Below are positions 2-9,639 of a stretch of 64,000 bases of DNA, piece after piece (positions within the stretch are counted from its first letter, which is position 1; every line of letters begins with the position of its first letter). The stretch comes from Vreelandella nigrificans (GTDB taxonomy: Bacteria; Pseudomonadota; Gammaproteobacteria; Pseudomonadales; Halomonadaceae). The stretch covers positions 5,150 to 69,149 of the forward strand of contig NZ_NWUX01000002.1 of the NCBI RefSeq assembly GCF_002374315.1. Reading direction: 5' to 3'. The translations under genes and the position numbers were made by a program. The notes under the pieces are model-generated. The model searched no databases, was not told where the DNA came from, and saw only the letters and a list, made by a program, of their open reading frames with translations.

Positions 2-1513
2 GTTTCTATCCGCACGCCCCGGGCGGGGCGCGACTGTATCCGTCCACCACGTCAGACCATTCGCTTTGTTTCTATCCGCACGCCCCGGGCGGGGCGCGAC
101 GTGAGTCGCTGGACGATCTAGCCGAGCATATACGGTTTCTATCCGCACGCCCCGGGCGGGGCGCGACTTGATAGCATCATGGCCTTGTCTCCCAATCGCC
201 TGTTTCTATCCGCACGCCCCGGGCGGGGCGCGACTCGTCAGCAGCACGAAGCGCGGCAATCCTTAACTGTTTCTATCCGCACGCCCCGGGCGGGGCGCGA
301 CCCAGGTCACGCCGATTTTAGCGCCTACATCAAGTTGTTTCTATCCGCACGCCCCGGGCGGGGCGCGACGCGGCAAGCGTGCCGACCTGCGCGGTGCCAA
401 CCTGGTTTCTATCCGCACGCCCCGGGCGGGGCGCGACCCAGGGCGCCAGCGCGGCGCCCACTTTGACTGAGAGTTTCTATCCGCACGCCCCGGGCGGGGC
501 GCGACCGTCCGGTATTGTTAGCGGCAATCCTGACTCTTGTTTCTATCCGCACGCCCCGGGCGGGGCGCGACTGTATCCGTCCACCACGTCAGACCATTCG
601 CTTTGTTTCTATCCGCACGCCCCGGGCGGGGCGCGACGCACAAACCAATGCAATGTTAGACGACATGCTCTGGTTTCTATCCGCACGCCCCGGGCGGGGC
701 GCGACGTGGCGCGCCGATGGACTGACTGCCACTAAAGAGTTTCTATCCGCACGCCCCGGGCGGGGCGCGACGTATCAACCCAATTGTACAGGTAGTTGTA
801 AGCTGCGTTTCTATCCGCACGCCCCGGGCGGGGCGCGACCTATTGATACGTAGGCGGCGCTTGGCGGCTTTGGTTTCTATCCGCACGCCCCGGGCGGGGC
901 GCGACGCAGATGGCTACAAGCCGACCTATACGCTTCCCTGTTTCTATCCGCACGCCCCGGGCGGGGCGCGACGGGTTTAACCCTGCGCTACAGTGATTCG
1001 ACGGCGGTGTTTCTATCCGCACGCCCCGGGCGGGGCGCGACCGGTAGCAGTCGCCCCCATGACTCTTGGTTCTTGTTTCTATCCGCACGCCCCGGGCGGG
1101 GCGCGACTCATGATCAACCACACCTGCCGCCACGGCGGACAGTTTCTATCCGCACGCCCCGGGCGGGGCGCGACGAGCCAGATAGGGCCGTTCAGGGACG
1201 CGAATATAAATGTTTCTATCCGCACGCCCCGGGCGGGGCGCGACCTGGAACCGCTAGGGCCGTTGCTGAGGCATCTCCGTTTCTATCCGCACGCCCCGGG
1301 CGGGGCGCGACGACCTAGCTCAAGCACATACGTTTGGTCAACACTGTTTCTATCCGCACGCCCCGGGCGGGGCGCGACCAATGACGGGAGTGAAAAACAA
1401 TGAAACACAAACGGTTTCTATCCGCACGCCCCGGGCGGGGCGCGACGGGTGCCCAATCTCAGTAACTCCGATCATGTCAAGTTTCTATCCGCACGCCCCG
1501 GGCGGGGCGCGAC
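2..1513 (-). CRISPR. Type I-C CRISPR array, 23 repeats visible, continues past the left edge
   Basis: Twenty-three copies of an identical 33-base repeat start at 2, 68, 135, 202, 269, 337, 405, 473, 539, 605, 673, 739, 807, 873, 940, 1009, 1075, 1142, 1212, 1279, 1346, 1414 and 1481. They are separated by 22 spacers of 33-37 bases. On the plus strand each repeat begins GTTTCTATCC and ends GGGGCGCGAC. On the minus strand, the transcribed sense judged from the cas genes, it reads GTCGCGCCCC...GATAGAAAC with a stem CGCCCC/GGGGCG and a 4-base loop, as in I-C repeats processed by Cas5c. The leader lies at the 1514 side, so the newest spacers are near 1480. No degenerate terminal repeat is seen, so the array extends beyond base 1. 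The spacer at 35-67 is repeated exactly at 572-604. Confidence 0.98.
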
Positions 1514-1520
1514 TGTTCTG

Positions 1521-1702: not shown

Positions 1703-1993
1703 CTAAAACACAAGGGGGCCATTCATATCTAAGGCTGGCTTGGCGCCAATATGCTCGATGCGGTTTTTCCAGTTTCGGCCTAGGAAGTAAAAACGTAAGC
1801 TGTCCACCTCGTCATCAATCAAGTCGATTAGGCGTTGACGAAAGCGTACCCATTGATCGGGATCGACTTCAATTTCAAACACTGAAAATTGTACTCGCTG
1901 TCCTACATCTCGACATGCTTTTGCAACTCGCCTCAACCTACCGTCACCGCCCTCTGAAGAGGTGCTGACATCGTAACTGACCAGTACCATCAT
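1703..1993 (-). CDS. cas2: CRISPR-associated endonuclease Cas2 (I-C type)
   Basis: This 96-residue protein starts MMVLVSYDVST. The family's ferredoxin-like fold begins with this beta strand, and its conserved Asp sits in the SYDV motif (residue 8). Cas2 dimers bridge two Cas1 dimers to form the integrase that inserts new spacers at the leader end. Length is normal for the family. It is the last cas gene, 18 bases after cas1, and is followed directly by the leader. A second Met at residue 2 makes the start uncertain by one codon. Confidence 0.95.
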   Translation of the reverse strand: MMVLVSYDVSTSSEGGDGRLRRVAKACRDVGQRVQFSVFEIEVDPDQWVRFRQRLIDLIDDEVDSLRFYFLGRNWKNRIEHIGAKPALDMNGPLVF

Positions 1994-2011: not shown

Positions 2012-3052
2012 CTATTTCCAAAGGAAAGGTGGGTAAACATCTAGGTCGCCCCGTAGGTGGCGTGCCATCAGCTGAGCTTGCAGTATGGGCAGCATGCCTA
2101 TAGGTGCTTTTTCATCAATAAACGTATGCAATAACTCTTCACGCTTTCGCTCTTGGTAAGCAGTTAGAACCAGCTTGCGGGCATCATCAGTCATAACGAC
2201 GCCATTGCTTTCCGTAATGTTAAAGTCCTTTTCGCGTAGCTGGCGTCGATTGATAAGCGAAAGGGCTAGACGGTCACCTAACAAAGGGCGGAACTCTTCA
2301 GCAAGGTCTAATGCAAGGCTTGGGCGACCTGGGCGATCACGGTGCAAAAAACCAACGGCTGGGTCTAAGCCTACGCTTTCTAGCGCTGAACGGCAGTCAT
2401 GAGTCAGCAGTGTATAAAGAAACGACAACAAGGCATTAATACGATCACGAGGAGGGCGGCGATTACGTCCTTTAAATTCAAAGGCATCGCCTTCTTGGCG
2501 CACTAAGAAATTGAAGACGCTGAAATATACTTGAGCGGCTTCGCCTTCCAAGCCTCGTAGCTCATTGGTTGTGGCAGGTTGCAGTAAATTACGTGCGACT
2601 CGGCTTAACCGGTCACGAGCCGCTTCCAGGCGCTGGCGATCTTGAAGTGGCATCTTGCTGCCATAGTCGCGAATGCCTCGGGCGAGAACAGCGCGCTGGT
2701 TATGGACTTTACCAATCAAAAGGCTGCTGACTAGGCTCGAACAGGAAGTGTCGTTATCACTGACACGGTATTGAGTTCGCCTAAGCAGTACATTGCCAGA
2801 GACGGGGCCTTCAATACGCGCCAAGAATTTCCCGTTTGGTGACAGGTGGGTGATGGTAACGCCTTGTTCGGCGCAGAATCCCATTAAAGGCGGGGATACA
2901 AGCACACGGCCAAAGCATACAAGGGACTCCAGCATATGAATGGGAAGCCTGGCGCGCTCTTTCCCTTCTACCTGCATGACAATATTGGCGCCTTCTTTTT
3001 TAAGCCAAGCACCTTCGGTGGTGATGTACAGTGAATTTAATTGTCGTCGCAT
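2012..3052 (-). CDS. cas1: CRISPR-associated endonuclease Cas1 (Cas1c)
   Basis: This 346-residue protein is the catalytic subunit of the spacer integrase. Expected metal-binding residues are visible: Glu169 in GLEGEAA, His237 in GFLHRDRPGR and Asp249 in LALDLAEEFRP. The N-terminal beta domain contains the typical LPIHMLESLVCFG segment near residue 36. The gene starts 5 bases after the cas4 stop, so it is probably translationally coupled. With intact catalytic residues and full length, adaptation should be functional. The last codons (FLWK-stop) contain a palindromic element shared with the cas5c upstream region. Confidence 0.97.
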   Translation of the reverse strand: MRRQLNSLYITTEGAWLKKEGANIVMQVEGKERARLPIHMLESLVCFGRVLVSPPLMGFCAEQGVTITHLSPNGKFLARIEGPVSGNVLLRRTQYRVSDNDTSCSSLVSSLLIGKVHNQRAVLARGIRDYGSKMPLQDRQRLEAARDRLSRVARNLLQPATTNELRGLEGEAAQVYFSVFNFLVRQEGDAFEFKGRNRRPPRDRINALLSFLYTLLTHDCRSALESVGLDPAVGFLHRDRPGRPSLALDLAEEFRPLLGDRLALSLINRRQLREKDFNITESNGVVMTDDARKLVLTAYQERKREELLHTFIDEKAPIGMLPILQAQLMARHLRGDLDVYPPFLWK

Positions 3053-3057
3053 AGGTG

Positions 3058-3696
3058 TTACTCATTCAAAGCATCAAGTTGGCGCGCGAGCCAGCGGCTT
3101 GCAGAGCGCTGTTTGCCAAACACTTGAGGTTGGCAAATATCGATAAGCGAACAGTGATCGCATTTCTTGGTATCGTAAATGGCAGGTGGTGTTTGCTGCC
3201 CATCAAAAATAGCGCGGGTTTGCTGAATAATTTGATGAGTTAAAGTGCGTAGAGTGTCGTCAAAGTCGACTTCTTTGCGCCGCCGTGTTTTTCCGTAAAA
3301 GAGCGCACCAGAGTCGATGTGAATATTTAGCATTTCTTCTAGGCAGAGCGCTTGAGCGCATAGCTGCACCTCATCTGCACGGTGCGCTTTGGGCCTCCCA
3401 CGTTTGTACTCAATAGGGCGTACAGTCAAAGGTGATTGACGTTCATCAAACTCTACAACATCGGCAATACCGCTCAAGCCCAGCTGTTCACTTGCCAAAG
3501 GCAAGGCCATAGAAGTGTGTACGCCACGGCGACGCTGATGCCCCTGCTGGTCAGCGCGCTCGTGTAACAAACGACCTTCGGCAGTGTAGCGGTTTTCTGC
3601 CCATTGCTGCTCCACGTGGATCAGCGCGCATTGGCGCGGGCAGAACAGCGTATGCTGCAGGGCCGAAAGCGGAATAGGGCGTGCCTCTTCTTCCAT
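3058..3696 (-). CDS. cas4: CRISPR-associated exonuclease Cas4 (Dna2/RecB-like)
   Basis: This 212-residue protein belongs to the Cas4 family, which trims prespacers and selects for a correct PAM during adaptation in type I-C. Nuclease residues Asp79 (GIAD), Glu96 and Lys98 (IEYKRG) are present. Cysteines that should hold an Fe-S cluster are seen at 19 and 23 near the N-terminus and at 179, 182 and 188 near the C-terminus (CDHCSLIDIC). The gene lies between cas7 (10-base gap) and cas1 (5-base gap) in one operon. Confidence 0.95.
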   Translation of the reverse strand: MEEEARPIPLSALQHTLFCPRQCALIHVEQQWAENRYTAEGRLLHERADQQGHQRRRGVHTSMALPLASEQLGLSGIADVVEFDERQSPLTVRPIEYKRGRPKAHRADEVQLCAQALCLEEMLNIHIDSGALFYGKTRRRKEVDFDDTLRTLTHQIIQQTRAIFDGQQTPPAIYDTKKCDHCSLIDICQPQVFGKQRSASRWLARQLDALNE

Positions 3697-3706
3697 GGCG
3701 TTTCAC

Positions 3707-4572
3707 CTATAAGTGTTCTTCTAGCGTCACACCAGACGGCAATGACTTGCTAGCAATATGAACCTGATAGTCGCTGTAGTGACGTGCCGGTGTATTTTCT
3801 GTCCCTTCAACACGCTTCACTTGAACACTATCGAAGAGCACATGGGCGGGCGCGTTACCCATTGGGTGATCATGTTTGAAAACAACAAGTTTTCGGGTGG
3901 ACATCTCACCACGCGCGGCAGAGCGGTCGTGTTCAAACATATTGATTAGAGAGCGCCATAAAAGAGCTAAATCGTCTTCTGAAAAACCGGTACGTTCAGC
4001 TAGCTTTGCAGAGACGTAGCCGTGTACGCGGTATAGGCCATAAGGAATGATGTGCTTGCGCCCCATAGTGCGCTCTTTTTCAAGATCCTTTTCGTTGGTA
4101 ACCGCCATACGGGTAATGGAGACTTCCATAGGTATGACGGGATCGATAGAGCTGGCAAAGGCCACCTGGACAGGGCCGCGTACTTGGCCGGAGTTTACCT
4201 CGGTTGTCATGACTGCGCCGAAGGTGCGCACGTCGAAAAAGTTATTGCACATCCATTCGGTTACTTGGCGCGCTTTTTCCGCTTCCTTGGGAAGCTTTTT
4301 AGATTCAGGTTTAATATCCAGCGCTTCATAAGCTTTTTTATGCTGATTGTTGAGCACTGACTTTTCTTGCATATAAATGGCATAGCCAGCGTCGTGTTCT
4401 TTTTCGAGCGCGACGTAGTTACGAATTTTACGTTTTAGGCATACATCCGTGATAAGACCTTGGTTAGTTTCTGGATCTAACCGTGGCAGGTTTCCTGCAT
4501 CAGGGTCGCCGTTGGGGTTGCCGTTGGTGACATCAAATAAAAGGACAAATTCGTAGCGGTTAGCAATGGTGC

Positions 4573-4576
<4 letters not shown>
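3707..4576 (-). CDS. cas7: Type I-C Cascade backbone subunit Cas7 (Csd2)
   Basis: This 289-residue protein has the Csd2 N-terminus: strand [10 protein letters not shown] followed by [16 protein letters not shown]. Several copies line the crRNA spacer and form the Cascade filament. Length is typical for Csd2. Its ATG overlaps the cas8c/cas11c stop codon by 4 bases, so translation is coupled and the start is secure. No defect is seen. Confidence 0.96.
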
Positions 4577-7049
<2,473 letters not shown>

Positions 7050-7054
7050 TTATT

Positions 7055-7084
7055 GAATTTAATCCGCGCCCCCTGAGGGGCGAC
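7055..7084 (-). repeat. Degenerate CRISPR repeat in front of cas5c
   Basis: Read on the minus strand, GTCGCCCC-TCAG-GGGGCG-CGGATTAAATTC aligns with the array repeat. It has the same first bases GTCG, the same 6-bp stem CGCCCC/GGGGCG with a 4-base loop, and a handle CGGATTAAA against CGGATAGAAAC. The differences are a CG lost before the stem, a TG lost after it, a different loop and a changed handle end. It is preceded by ATGCTATAAACA, matching 11 of 12 bases of the end of the CRISPR leader. The co-linear match makes common origin with a leader-repeat junction very likely. Its role is unknown. Confidence 0.8.
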
Positions 7085-7087
7085 TTG

Positions 7088-7096
7088 TTTATAGCA
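7088..7096 (-). promoter_or_regulatory. Leader-like extended -10 before cas5c
   Basis: TGCTATAAA (minus strand, 7096-7088) is an extended -10. A transcript starting about 7 bases downstream would begin inside the degenerate repeat, so the cas5c mRNA would open with its hairpin, followed by the cas5c ribosome site. A palindrome-like TTTCC-TTT-GGAAA lies just upstream (7101-7113). No good -35 at 16-18 bases was found, which is tolerable for an extended -10. It would give cas5c-cas8c-cas7-cas4-cas1-cas2 a promoter separate from cas3. Confidence 0.5.
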
Positions 7097-7130
7097 TTAA
7101 TTTCCAAAGGAAAATTTCAACCCGCTCCTA

Positions 7131-7307
7131 CTATTGAAGCCAAGACCTGAACCCTAGTGCTGCACAGGTCAAGCTAAGTAGAGAGACTATCCAAGATAGT
7201 TTGAAAGGGCATTTGACCTCCAAAGTGACGTAGCCTTGCTGAATTTTGCAAAGCAGAAACCAGTTGCTATCTTCGGTTTTTCTGTCATTACCTTTGGATG
7301 AGTGCAT
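7131..7307 (-). CDS. Small ORF (58 aa) with one hydrophobic segment between cas3 and cas5c
   Basis: An ATG at 7307 preceded by GAGGGGG (7318-7312, a good ribosome site) opens 58 codons ending with TAG at 7133-7131. The protein starts MHSSKGNDRKTED and its last third, about residues 36-55 (KLSWIVSLLSLTCAALGF), could span a membrane once. I do not recognise the family. It sits on the cas strand, 73 bases after cas3, in the only sizeable gap of the locus, and ends just before the degenerate repeat. Small toxins paired with crRNA-like RNAs occupy comparable places in CreTA modules, but no homology to one is claimed. It may also be a chance frame. Confidence 0.45.
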   Translation of the reverse strand: MHSSKGNDRKTEDSNWFLLCKIQQGYVTLEVKCPFKLSWIVSLLSLTCAALGFRSWLQ

Positions 7308-7380
7308 AAGGCCCCCTCGGCTCTTGTTAGAAGCAGCTTAGGGCAGCTCTATTTTAATTTCAACTTCTTTCCATTAGAAA

Positions 7381-9639
7381 TTAAAGGATAAGGTTTTCGG
7401 CTCGCATAAAGGTTGGATCGCTCCAGTTCAACCCTAGCGCATCGTGGTAGAGGTCTTCATTGACCAGCAGCATGAATTGGTCATTAAATTTATCCGGCTC
7501 GATAGGTGCAATGGCACCGACTTTTTCCAGGGCTCTAAAGCCGTTATGAGGCACTTGCACTGTATAGAGCTGAAGTTTACGGGCGATGCCTCCAGGGCTT
7601 GTGGCAAAGGCGAGTTCTTTAATCGCTTTGCGTGCGTCAGCGTCTCTGGGAATAATGACACTGCGTTGATTGTTGTCGATGAGGCGAAATGTCTTTTCGA
7701 GGGTTTCAAAAGGCAGCCCTTCAAGGCGCCCGTTTTCAATCAGCGAGAGCAGTTGGTGCTTGTCGAGTTGGTCAGGCCCTTGCTGCCAGTAAAGTAGCGT
7801 GAAATACGCCTCTATCGCTTCCAGCGAAAGCGGGTCGTGACCGTGTTGGCGTAGTACTTCGCGAGTGGCTTGGGCGAACTGTTTTAGCTCGGGCGGCGGC
7901 GCCCACTCCTCATTGGCAGTTGCAAAAATACGTACTTCGCTCTCTGCGGTGGTTCGTTTGCCTTCACGGTTACAGCGCCCTGCGGCCTGGGCGATGGAAT
8001 CTAGCCCCGCCTCGGCGCGCAGCACCCTCGGAAAGTCTACATCCACGCCCGCTTCTATTAATGACGTAGACACCACCCGGCATGGTTTGCCTTCTTTTAG
8101 TGTTCCACGAATATGGTGTAATACCTGCCGCCGATGAACAGCGCACATGGCGGTGGTCAGGTGAAAAGCACCTGGCTGATCGGCGATAGATTCATACAAG
8201 GCTCTGGCATGGCGGCGGTTATTGACGATGCACAGTACCTGATCGACGTCTAGGAGCTCGTGGCGCAGCTGGTCGTCATCTAAGCAGCCCATATGCTTTA
8301 CCGTCACCCGCTTTAACTTTCGATACAGGTTTTTTGGATCGGGGGCCAGCTCCTCGACGTCTTTGAAGCCACCTGTGAAACTGCGGGCTGCGTCATTAGT
8401 TTCAAGCAGGGCGGGTTGGGTCGCGGTACAGAGCACAATGCTGGCGTGATAATTCAGCGTGAGTTCATCCAGTGCGGCAACACTTGGCCTTAGCAAGGGC
8501 AGTGGCATTGTCTGTGCTTCATCGAGAATCACCACGCTACGGGCAATATTATGTAATTTGCGGCAGCGTGATGTTTTAGCGGCAAAGAGGCTTTCCAGGA
8601 ACTGCACGGATGTTGTCACGACAATCGGTGCGTCCCAGTTCTCACTGTCGCGTCTGAGTTTATCAAGACTATCCTTGTCGCCTTTTGACGCTTTTTCAGC
8701 ATCAAAGGTGCTGTGGTGTTCGAGCACTGCTTCAGCGCCATATTGGCTCAGCGCCTTCCGAAACACGGCAGCGTTCTGTTCTACGATACTGGTGAAGGGG
8801 ATAACATAAATAACGCGATCCATGCCATGGGTGATGGCGTGATCCAGGGCGAAGGCGAGGGAAGCCAGGGTTTTGCCACCGCCAGTGGGTACCGTGAGGC
8901 TGAAACAGCCGGGCCTCATTCCCGCTTTGTTACGTACCTCACGCAGGATATGCCCACGTAATTGGTTAATGCCTTTTTCGGTGTCGAAGGTTTCTAAGTG
9001 TTGCTTCAGTGCTTCGCGAAGATGCGTTAGCGAAGCGCCGCCACCGCGTTGCCGTGCTAAGCCGTTTTCATGTTGGGCGTAGAAGGTTTCGGTATCGATA
9101 TAGTCTGCATCGACTAAGCATGAAAATAGCATTCTGGTGAGAAACGCGAGCTGAAAGAAACCCCGTTCTGGACGTTGGGTAAACGTGCCAGGAGGACGTA
9201 GCTCTTGTGGAAGCGTAATCGCCTCTTGCCAAGCGTTATCTATTGCAGGGATATCCGCTTTAAGGCGTTCACTAAGCGGGGAGCGTTCGCCTGAGTCACG
9301 GCCATTGGCAAGCCCTGCATGATGGCCCGCAATACAGTAGGCCAGCAAGTCGCCGATTCCTCCTTTGAAGCGTTGTTTAGCGACAATAGCGCCTGCAGTG
9401 GAATGATCAACACGTTCTGGAGAACCTTCCAGTCGCCGCTGAAAAGGCGCGCTGTATTTGCCTAAATCATGCAAAAGACCCGCTGCATATCCTGCATCTG
9501 CCATACCAAAGCGTTCAGCGCGTGTTGCCGCCATTTCGGCGACACACTGTAAGTGATCATCTAGGGTTTGCCAGGCTTGCTTGTCTGTTTCTGGGAGTGA
9601 GTGAGCGTAAAAACATGACGATTTAGGCAGCATCTGCAT
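7381..9639 (-). CDS. cas3: CRISPR-associated nuclease-helicase Cas3 (I-C)
   Basis: This 752-residue protein has an N-terminal HD nuclease (HD pair at 57-58 in GLLHDLGKYS) followed by a superfamily 2 helicase. Walker A TGGGKT lies at 252-257, the DEAQ box at 373-376 (ILDEAQTMP), and a late motif AGRCNREGK after TSLIEAGVDVDFPR. It degrades target DNA after Cascade binding. It is the first cas gene and faces serS across 196 bases. Two Met codons (residues 1 and 3) are possible starts and neither has a strong ribosome site. Confidence 0.97.
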   Translation of the reverse strand: MQMLPKSSCFYAHSLPETDKQAWQTLDDHLQCVAEMAATRAERFGMADAGYAAGLLHDLGKYSAPFQRRLEGSPERVDHSTAGAIVAKQRFKGGIGDLLAYCIAGHHAGLANGRDSGERSPLSERLKADIPAIDNAWQEAITLPQELRPPGTFTQRPERGFFQLAFLTRMLFSCLVDADYIDTETFYAQHENGLARQRGGGASLTHLREALKQHLETFDTEKGINQLRGHILREVRNKAGMRPGCFSLTVPTGGGKTLASLAFALDHAITHGMDRVIYVIPFTSIVEQNAAVFRKALSQYGAEAVLEHHSTFDAEKASKGDKDSLDKLRRDSENWDAPIVVTTSVQFLESLFAAKTSRCRKLHNIARSVVILDEAQTMPLPLLRPSVAALDELTLNYHASIVLCTATQPALLETNDAARSFTGGFKDVEELAPDPKNLYRKLKRVTVKHMGCLDDDQLRHELLDVDQVLCIVNNRRHARALYESIADQPGAFHLTTAMCAVHRRQVLHHIRGTLKEGKPCRVVSTSLIEAGVDVDFPRVLRAEAGLDSIAQAAGRCNREGKRTTAESEVRIFATANEEWAPPPELKQFAQATREVLRQHGHDPLSLEAIEAYFTLLYWQQGPDQLDKHQLLSLIENGRLEGLPFETLEKTFRLIDNNQRSVIIPRDADARKAIKELAFATSPGGIARKLQLYTVQVPHNGFRALEKVGAIAPIEPDKFNDQFMLLVNEDLYHDALGLNWSDPTFMRAENLIL

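Follow-up and report, generated by a model that had tools for sequence, protein, structure and literature searches.

The present analysis suggests that the 343-nucleotide (nt) gap between cas3 and cas5c in the type I-C CRISPR-Cas locus of Vreelandella nigrificans probably holds a type I-C module of the CreTA kind, with a candidate membrane-peptide toxin. The locus is complete (cas3, cas5c, cas8c, cas7, cas4, cas1, cas2 and an array) and lies on the minus strand of the 64,000-nt stretch of contig NZ_NWUX01000002.1 analyzed here, which we call the window. Read in the direction of the cas genes, the gap contains a target, a predicted promoter, a small open reading frame (ORF) and a guide, followed by cas5c, so that the module sits inside the cas locus of its cognate type I system, the location expected of CreTA. 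The guide and its target are well supported by comparison with other loci; that the module would be transcribed and its guide processed, and that it would repress a toxic product acting at the membrane, we infer. The module consists of the following parts, in which PAM stands for protospacer adjacent motif.

7365-7367, plus strand: TTC, the PAM of the self-target, directly 5′ of the seed match
7368-7384, plus strand: target (protospacer seed), overlapping the cas3 stop codon and matching the guide at all 17 positions except 6 and 9
7358-7363, minus strand: putative -35 element TTGAAA, a single base beyond the PAM (shuffling of mononucleotides gives p=0.033)
7335-7340, minus strand: putative -10 element TAAGCT at 17-nt spacing, weak alone (3/6 to consensus)
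7312-7318, minus strand: Shine-Dalgarno-like GAGGGGG before the small ORF, read from the sequence
7131-7307, minus strand: creT-like ORF of 58 amino acids, the candidate toxin, with one hydrophobic, membrane-like segment near its C-terminus
7114-7140, minus strand: psiR1, a degenerate repeat with a 5-bp hairpin and the 5′ tag GGGTTGAAAT (folding and gap comparison)
7085-7113, minus strand: psiS, a 29-nt pseudo-spacer, the guide (gap comparison and target match)
7058-7084, minus strand: psiR2, a degenerate repeat with a 6-bp stem, the presumed Cas5c site (folding and repeat likeness)

The match between guide and target carries most of this argument. The first 17 nt of psiS pair with 7368-7384 on the plus strand while the remaining, PAM-distal part is unmatched, and when positions 6 and 12 are not counted this is the sole site with fewer than three mismatches in the 4.93-Mb genome; the scan returned two sites with three mismatches, one of them the spacer itself. 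The comparison started from the best 80 of 586 relatives, a set of named I-C loci, and the merged set comprises 130 distinct cas5-anchored loci after 6 duplicates were dropped (L003 duplicates L017). Outside this set stand L061, L110, L129 and L140, which have no cas3-like ORF upstream, the window itself (L001), the partial or split matches L013-L016, L116-L119 and L120, and class matches for which there is no locus sequence. With scoring that disregards positions 6 and 12, as in the 26-locus and 130-locus counts alike, the spacers of 22 of the 26 loci with a tag find a TTC-flanked target of at least 11/15 in their own gap and 15 of the 26 one of at least 14/15. Swapping spacers among loci (650 combinations) gave 4 matches of at least 11/15, the best being 13, and shuffling them (26,000 spacers) gave 124, none of which reached 14. 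Across these sequences a spacer matches the target of its own locus and rarely that of another, and guide and target, judged by the same comparison, co-evolve.

In the merged set guide and target are present together in 32 of the 130 loci (in L096, two of three tag matches were set aside by hand), and 28-29 of these 32 targets carry TTC. Because scoring blind to positions 6 and 12 could bias a tally of mismatches, the tally was rerun unweighted: position 6 is mismatched in 22 of the 32 loci and position 12 in 21, against no more than 8 at any position elsewhere. The site, picked with neither PAM rule nor weighting, has a TTC PAM in 28/32 loci, and near-perfect TTC matches lie in the 6/12 phase in 18 loci versus 0-2 in each of the five other phases. 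Type I Cascade disregards every sixth base, and TTC is the type I-C PAM. The same PAM is given for a Xanthomonas I-C system (PMC8406640). We read the pairing as DNA recognition by Cascade because it joins the type I mismatch pattern to a TTC PAM; such a signature, seen in sequence, implies recognition by Cascade. A PAM-flanked, seed-type partial match at the predicted promoter region of a toxin is likewise a mark of CreTA.

The guide element itself had been noticed in part by an earlier, sequence-only reading, which saw at 7055-7097 the leader-repeat junction of the array transplanted in front of cas5c. On the minus strand this piece reads ATGCTATAAACA-A-GTCGCCCCTCAGGGGGCGCGGATTAAA, and its hairpin (7082-7067) has, as claimed, a perfect 6-bp stem and a 4-nt loop, the element ending at 7055, 17 bases 5′ of the cas5c ATG (from the end of the psiR2 stem to the cas5c start it is 29 nt). 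Repeats of the array read GTCGCGCCCCGCCCGGGGCGTGCGGATAGAAAC, and its leader terminates in ATGTTATAAACAGAACA. The degenerate repeat holds up, as psiR2; what had been taken for leader is the distal stretch of psiS, which in the window alone matches the array leader end at 11/13 (p=0.004, with no correction for the 16 tests), while the spacers of the 15 other loci tested show no such likeness (p of at least 0.218). A leader transplant as a general feature was therefore dropped, the likeness occurring in only 1/16 loci tested. As an alternative for the window only, TGCTATAAA in distal psiS resembles an extended -10 element, as does the leader end. We take the hairpin to be only half of the element, the convincing part being the upstream pseudo-repeat and the spacer with its own TTC-PAM target. 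psiR1 folds as GCTTC-AATAGTA-GGAGC, with the stop codon of the small ORF in its loop, and psiR1 and psiR2 enclose psiS as degenerate repeats do in CreTA guide genes. Repeat likeness alone is modest: when the repeat is aligned locally with the 343-nt gap, its score is reached in 4/2000 dinucleotide shuffles and in 13/719 other stretches of the window, and the 111-nt region folds equally well in 7/200 shuffles. The pattern recurs in the gaps of relatives as a mini-array in which a tag resembling the 3′ end of the repeat (like GYGGATWGAAAC) is followed, mostly after 23-43 nt, by a degenerate repeat hairpin. An Rfam scan of 6900-7450 found no family match, and the strict promoter scan marked the psiR2 hairpin as terminator-like on the plus strand, where 1 such call stands against 0.8 expected by chance.

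As in the window, the target is near the cas3 stop codon in many sister loci. The sequence next to the target resembles a promoter across loci, with a Fisher-combined p of 6e-11 for 31 loci, 11 of which individually reach p≤0.05; this test, made with mononucleotide shuffles, excluded L089 and considered the cas direction only, which is the wrong one for L130 and L131. The hydropathy of the window ORF exceeds that of dinucleotide shuffles (p=0.007) and of mononucleotide shuffles (p=0.027). Taking ORFs of at least 28 amino acids and calling a segment membrane-like at a windowed hydropathy of at least 1.3, we found an ORF with such a segment in 20 of 30 loci examined, 15 of them at p≤0.05 (the shuffle test did not take in the ORFs of L130, L131 and L143 in full); antisense ORFs reach that level in two loci only, L021 and L058. 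Where the guide is co-directional (17 loci), the stop codon of the ORF falls no more than 9 nt from the psiR1 tag in 12. Amino acids are kept better than under random placement of substitutions in 6 of 7 ORF pairs (p 0.0005-0.002; three of the seven pairs share loci), and in the L130/L131 pair the differences at the three codon positions number 6, 2 and 22. These tests concern relatives only, because no other homologue of the window ORF was found in the genus. The ORFs of the relatives thus appear to be under protein-level selection, which argues for a protein rather than an RNA product. Searches with small ORFs stayed below cut-off in Pfam, PADLOC and NCBIfam (7, 3 and 4 ORFs scanned, respectively), three of them giving sub-threshold Pfam scores (E 0.075-0.25). 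A single-sequence AlphaFold model of the window ORF combines a beta hairpin with a helix at 35-50 towards the C-terminus, but its confidence is low (predicted local distance difference test score 58.7); it proves nothing and was kept out of any fold search.

A close known counterpart is CreTA of the Citrobacter rodentium type I-E system (PMC12055562), with which the window module shares its place between cas3 and the cas gene that follows, a psiR/psiS guide, a small ORF with predicted strong expression signals and a target beside a PAM at the promoter, there at the UP element. The two differ in that the Citrobacter module is of type I-E, with an ATG PAM, a 96-bp ORF and a guide upstream on the opposite strand, whereas that of the window is of type I-C, with a TTC PAM, an ORF of 58 amino acids with a membrane-like segment and a co-directional guide downstream of the ORF. 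Acinetobacter and haloarchaeal CreTA likewise have degenerate repeats around a pseudo-spacer that partly matches the toxin promoter, between cas genes (PMC10097628, PMC8501985, PMC9458426); the ORFs of the I-C loci differ in being protein-coding in appearance, at 33-79 codons. CreTA of haloarchaea and of Acinetobacter I-F was characterized as an RNA toxin, and I-B and I-F CreTs carry mini-ORFs yet act as RNAs (PMC8501985, PMC10097628). The candidate toxin could accordingly be pictured as an RNA that sequesters a tRNA or blocks translation, the ORF being merely part of the RNA device. We consider this unlikely, given the length of the I-C ORFs, their membrane-like segments and the protein-level selection on them, and given that the toxicity of the 96-bp Citrobacter I-E CreT requires translation (PMC12055562).

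CrePA, too, is a protein toxin repressed by a CRISPR effector with a guide resembling CRISPR RNA (crRNA), but its toxin is a KilA-N protein acting on cell division (PMC12737573); the window ORF, a short peptide, has no match in the libraries, and so does not qualify as KilA-N. The type I-C Racr of a phage (PMC10651486) shares with the window element a lone I-C repeat-like hairpin beside a small gene, but is virus-borne and solitary, whereas the window element comes with both spacer and target and is part of a cas locus. As a whole word, "I-C" had no match in the available text of PMC8501985, PMC10097628 and PMC9458426, and among the literature matches listed, largely without subscription papers, there was neither a type I-C CreTA nor a membrane CreT.

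Shmakov et al. (2023) reportedly describe crRNA-like elements, as standalone repeats or mini-arrays, whose matches lie in the promoters of cas genes or of cargo genes, toxin-antitoxin genes among them. In the mechanism that we propose for the window, a two-repeat mini-CRISPR (7140-7058, minus strand) would give rise to a crRNA-like guide, cut by Cas5c probably at psiR2 and perhaps also at psiR1; cleavage at the psiR2 hairpin likely matures the guide. Within I-C Cascade the guide would pair through its 17-nt seed, positions 6 and 12 being free, at the TTC-flanked site of the cas3 stop codon, where Cascade should bind without licensing cutting by Cas3 because the PAM-distal part is unpaired. Bound Cascade would abut the putative promoter of the 58-amino acid ORF and should block transcription of the ORF; it should also obstruct read-through transcription from cas3 into the cas5c operon. 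Were Cascade lost or inhibited, by mutation or by an anti-CRISPR, the small protein would be produced and would be expected to halt growth or kill the cell. Repression is thus predicted to depend on Cascade and on the guide, and the product is predicted to be toxic.

A different weighting of the same parts yields autoregulation of the kind known as CreR, in which a mini-CRISPR-type guide matches near cas genes (PMC12737573). Here the guide would mainly repress a promoter serving the cas5c-cas2 operon and the guide itself, with the ORF as an incidental feature or a membrane co-factor. This account is possible, if doubtful. The targeted promoter in the window does face cas5c, about 300 nt downstream, and L042 and a Tistrella plasmid locus (L150) have target and guide with no candidate ORF; L042, with target, promoter-like sequence and guide and no ORF of at least 28 amino acids, looks closer to cas autoregulation. 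In L130 and L131, however, the ORF diverges from cas5c and overlaps the end of cas3 in antisense, and the target lies just before the ORF start, in its 5′ region; since the target there precedes a divergent ORF, the regulated unit appears to be the ORF and not the cas operon. Autoregulation also needs no membrane-like ORFs under protein-level selection, yet distant loci have them, and in the window a small ORF is coupled to the guide, whereas the target of CreR is a cas promoter and there is generally no coupled toxin gene (PMC12737573). In the window, a block at this promoter would also lower transcription into cas5c-cas2, so that control of the toxin may coincide there with autoregulation of the cas genes. 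The plasmid locus just named, on Tistrella mobilis pTM3, which is typed as conjugative, has a guide in a 143-nt gap and an 11/15 TTC target inside the end of cas3, with no candidate membrane ORF.

Several observations weigh against a CreTA-like module with a protein toxin. In the window, CreR is not separable by sequence because ORF, guide and cas5c are co-directional, and the ORF is no proof of a protein toxin, since I-B and I-F CreTs act as RNAs despite their mini-ORFs. The promoter is weak by consensus, and a stricter promoter scan finds none in the window. Among the 26 loci scored for spacer matches, L052 and L067 have no target of 11/15 even when the PAM rule is lifted, L065 and L084 reach the threshold only with a TTT PAM, and the targets of L089 and L094 are no better than 11/15. 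Among the 30 loci examined for ORFs, L042, L052, L065, L067, L084, L093 and L096 have none of at least 28 amino acids, and the ORFs of L048, L083 and L094 have no membrane-like segment. The ORF pair L123/L125 gave no significant sign of selection (p=0.135). A search of 82 genomes of the genus for homologues of the window ORF matched one, the window's own.

The sequence-only reading had offered three models for its hairpin, and the one that invoked a crRNA-like RNA guiding Cascade comes nearest to the CreTA-like module favored here; it had seen the 3′ half of the guide, had taken part of the spacer for leader and had missed the target and the ORF. Another model had Cas5c control its own synthesis by binding or cutting this hairpin (psiR2) within the 5′ leader of its mRNA, for which it speaks that psiR2 keeps a repeat-like stem near the cas5c start in the window and that a guide-making cut at psiR2 would trim the cas5c mRNA anyway. 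As a general main function this is hard to sustain, the guide being on the strand opposite cas5c in 5/32 loci (L058, L096, L107, L113, L135). Moreover, psiR2 stems diverge widely from the host repeat, and 66 of the 130 gaps are shorter than 60 nt, too short for the module (the hairpin scan, like the guide search, covered gaps of at least 60 nt). We regard self-control by Cas5c as quite unlikely. The last of the three, an inert relic of a degenerate array beside the cas genes, was disfavored already by the sequence-only reading and is very improbable: the repeats are degenerate and the examined same-genus I-C loci have no such element, but the target is unique and bears the type I signature, the ORF is intact, and the guide-target match is kept locus by locus in relatives.

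Guide and target occur together in 28 of 33 cas3-cas5c gaps of 190-450 nt (the five others being L023, L028, L052, L072 and L079), in 4 of 6 longer gaps and in 0 of 25 gaps of 60-189 nt; in L007 cas5c is broken and the gap value of 188 is not meaningful. The sequence-only reading had staked its hairpin on conservation in close relatives with the same repeat, and here it is partly contradicted: in five same-genus I-C loci (L002, L004, L005, L006, L017) the gap measures 26-27 nt and the whole module, not the hairpin alone, is missing, with repeat identity to the window checked for L017 only. On a cas5c tree of 117 loci, which leaves out 12 weak Cas5 loci of the 130 and one row by length, the presence of guide plus target requires 26 changes, of which no fewer than 22 are forced; shuffled labels require 28.1 on average and do as well in 88 of 500 trials. 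L113 sits on a very long branch. Guide plus target is thus scattered on the tree, which points to frequent, patchy gain or loss at one site.

Whether this extends to a wider picture is an even call. In that picture I-C systems, mostly of Proteobacteria, would repeatedly carry exchangeable, CRISPR-guarded membrane toxins at a fixed site, which would punish loss or inhibition of Cascade and survive replacement of the effector; it counts at least two unrelated ORF families as well as HicA variants. A second ORF family, with ELR...L..RF followed by a hydrophobic stretch, is found in the more distant loci L113, L130, L131, L135 and L143. The module could outlast a divergent replacement of the I-C effector, as L179 suggests, because it is keyed only to the repeat and the PAM. 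A CreT-family profile built from six CreT-like ORFs and run, with no cas query, against 398 phylum-wide genomes matched 13 of them at E≤0.01. Two matches were strong (3.5e-20 and 2.1e-14), both with guide and target, one (L154) being the already known locus L050 and the other L155. In L155 the ORF, the guide and a 13/15 TTC target follow a cas3-like fragment (a 165-amino acid ORF) and precede a divergent I-C effector set; identity to the window is 35% for cas3, 34% for cas7 and 23% for cas8c versus 64-78% for cas4-cas1-cas2. The four strong matches of a second search with the profile are the loci from which it was built, and the weaker matches (11, and 8 in the second search) have no cas3, cas5c or cas8c within about 3 kb where the locus was obtained.

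If the CreTA-like reading is true, then CRISPR-guarded toxins extend to subtype I-C, with a membrane peptide in place of an RNA toxin. The candidate membrane CreT would then resemble the peptides of type I toxin-antitoxin systems. Deleting or inhibiting I-C Cascade would be costly in such strains, which bears on anti-CRISPR biology and on the use of endogenous I-C systems as tools. The comparative fingerprint (a fixed site, TTC as the PAM, positions 6 and 12 prone to mismatch) makes it possible to find such modules computationally.

The remaining features of the window locus are conventional.

7381-9639, minus strand: cas3 (Cas3c models)
6369-7037, minus strand: cas5c (TIGR01876)
4573-6372, minus strand: cas8c (family models)
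3707-4576, minus strand: cas7c (family models)
3058-3696, minus strand: cas4 (family models)
2012-3052, minus strand: cas1 (family models)
1703-1993, minus strand: cas2 (family models)
near 1515, minus strand: array leader end (repeat and leader reading)
2-1514, minus strand: CRISPR array with 33-nt repeats and 23 copies of the repeat core, beginning at the edge of the window

Variants at the same site in other loci were noted in passing. In L179 (G1175:C1:2844000-2860000), as in L155, the module follows a cas3-like fragment and a divergent cas3-cas5-cas8c-cas7 set lies between it and a well-conserved cas4-cas1-cas2, and in both the effector seems to have been exchanged beside a retained module. 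L067, from Neisseria sp., has a complete two-repeat mini-array in a gap of 108 nt with no convincing target in that gap, the best in the locus being an 11/15 match 4693 nt past the cas5c start, and its guide may target elsewhere. In the 329-nt gap before cas5c of L107, an ORF like those of the second family is broken, by eye, at a homopolymer run, which may reflect decay of this copy, slippage in the sequencing or switching by phase variation. Genes of the HicA type recur: Pfam identifies both a HicA and a HicB gene upstream of the L021 module and a HicA gene after the guide in L065, and by eye a HicA-like gene stands at the module site in L093 and L105; the guide target lies just after cas3 in both L065 and L093. 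Another cargo ORF of about 100 amino acids (YPNGKIYVG or similar) occupies the same gap in L023, where it has no Pfam match, in L028 and in L183, the last of these being a locus on Rhizobium sp. Q54 plasmid LR606150.1 in which the cargo ORF is interrupted and the annotation splits cas8c into two ORFs.
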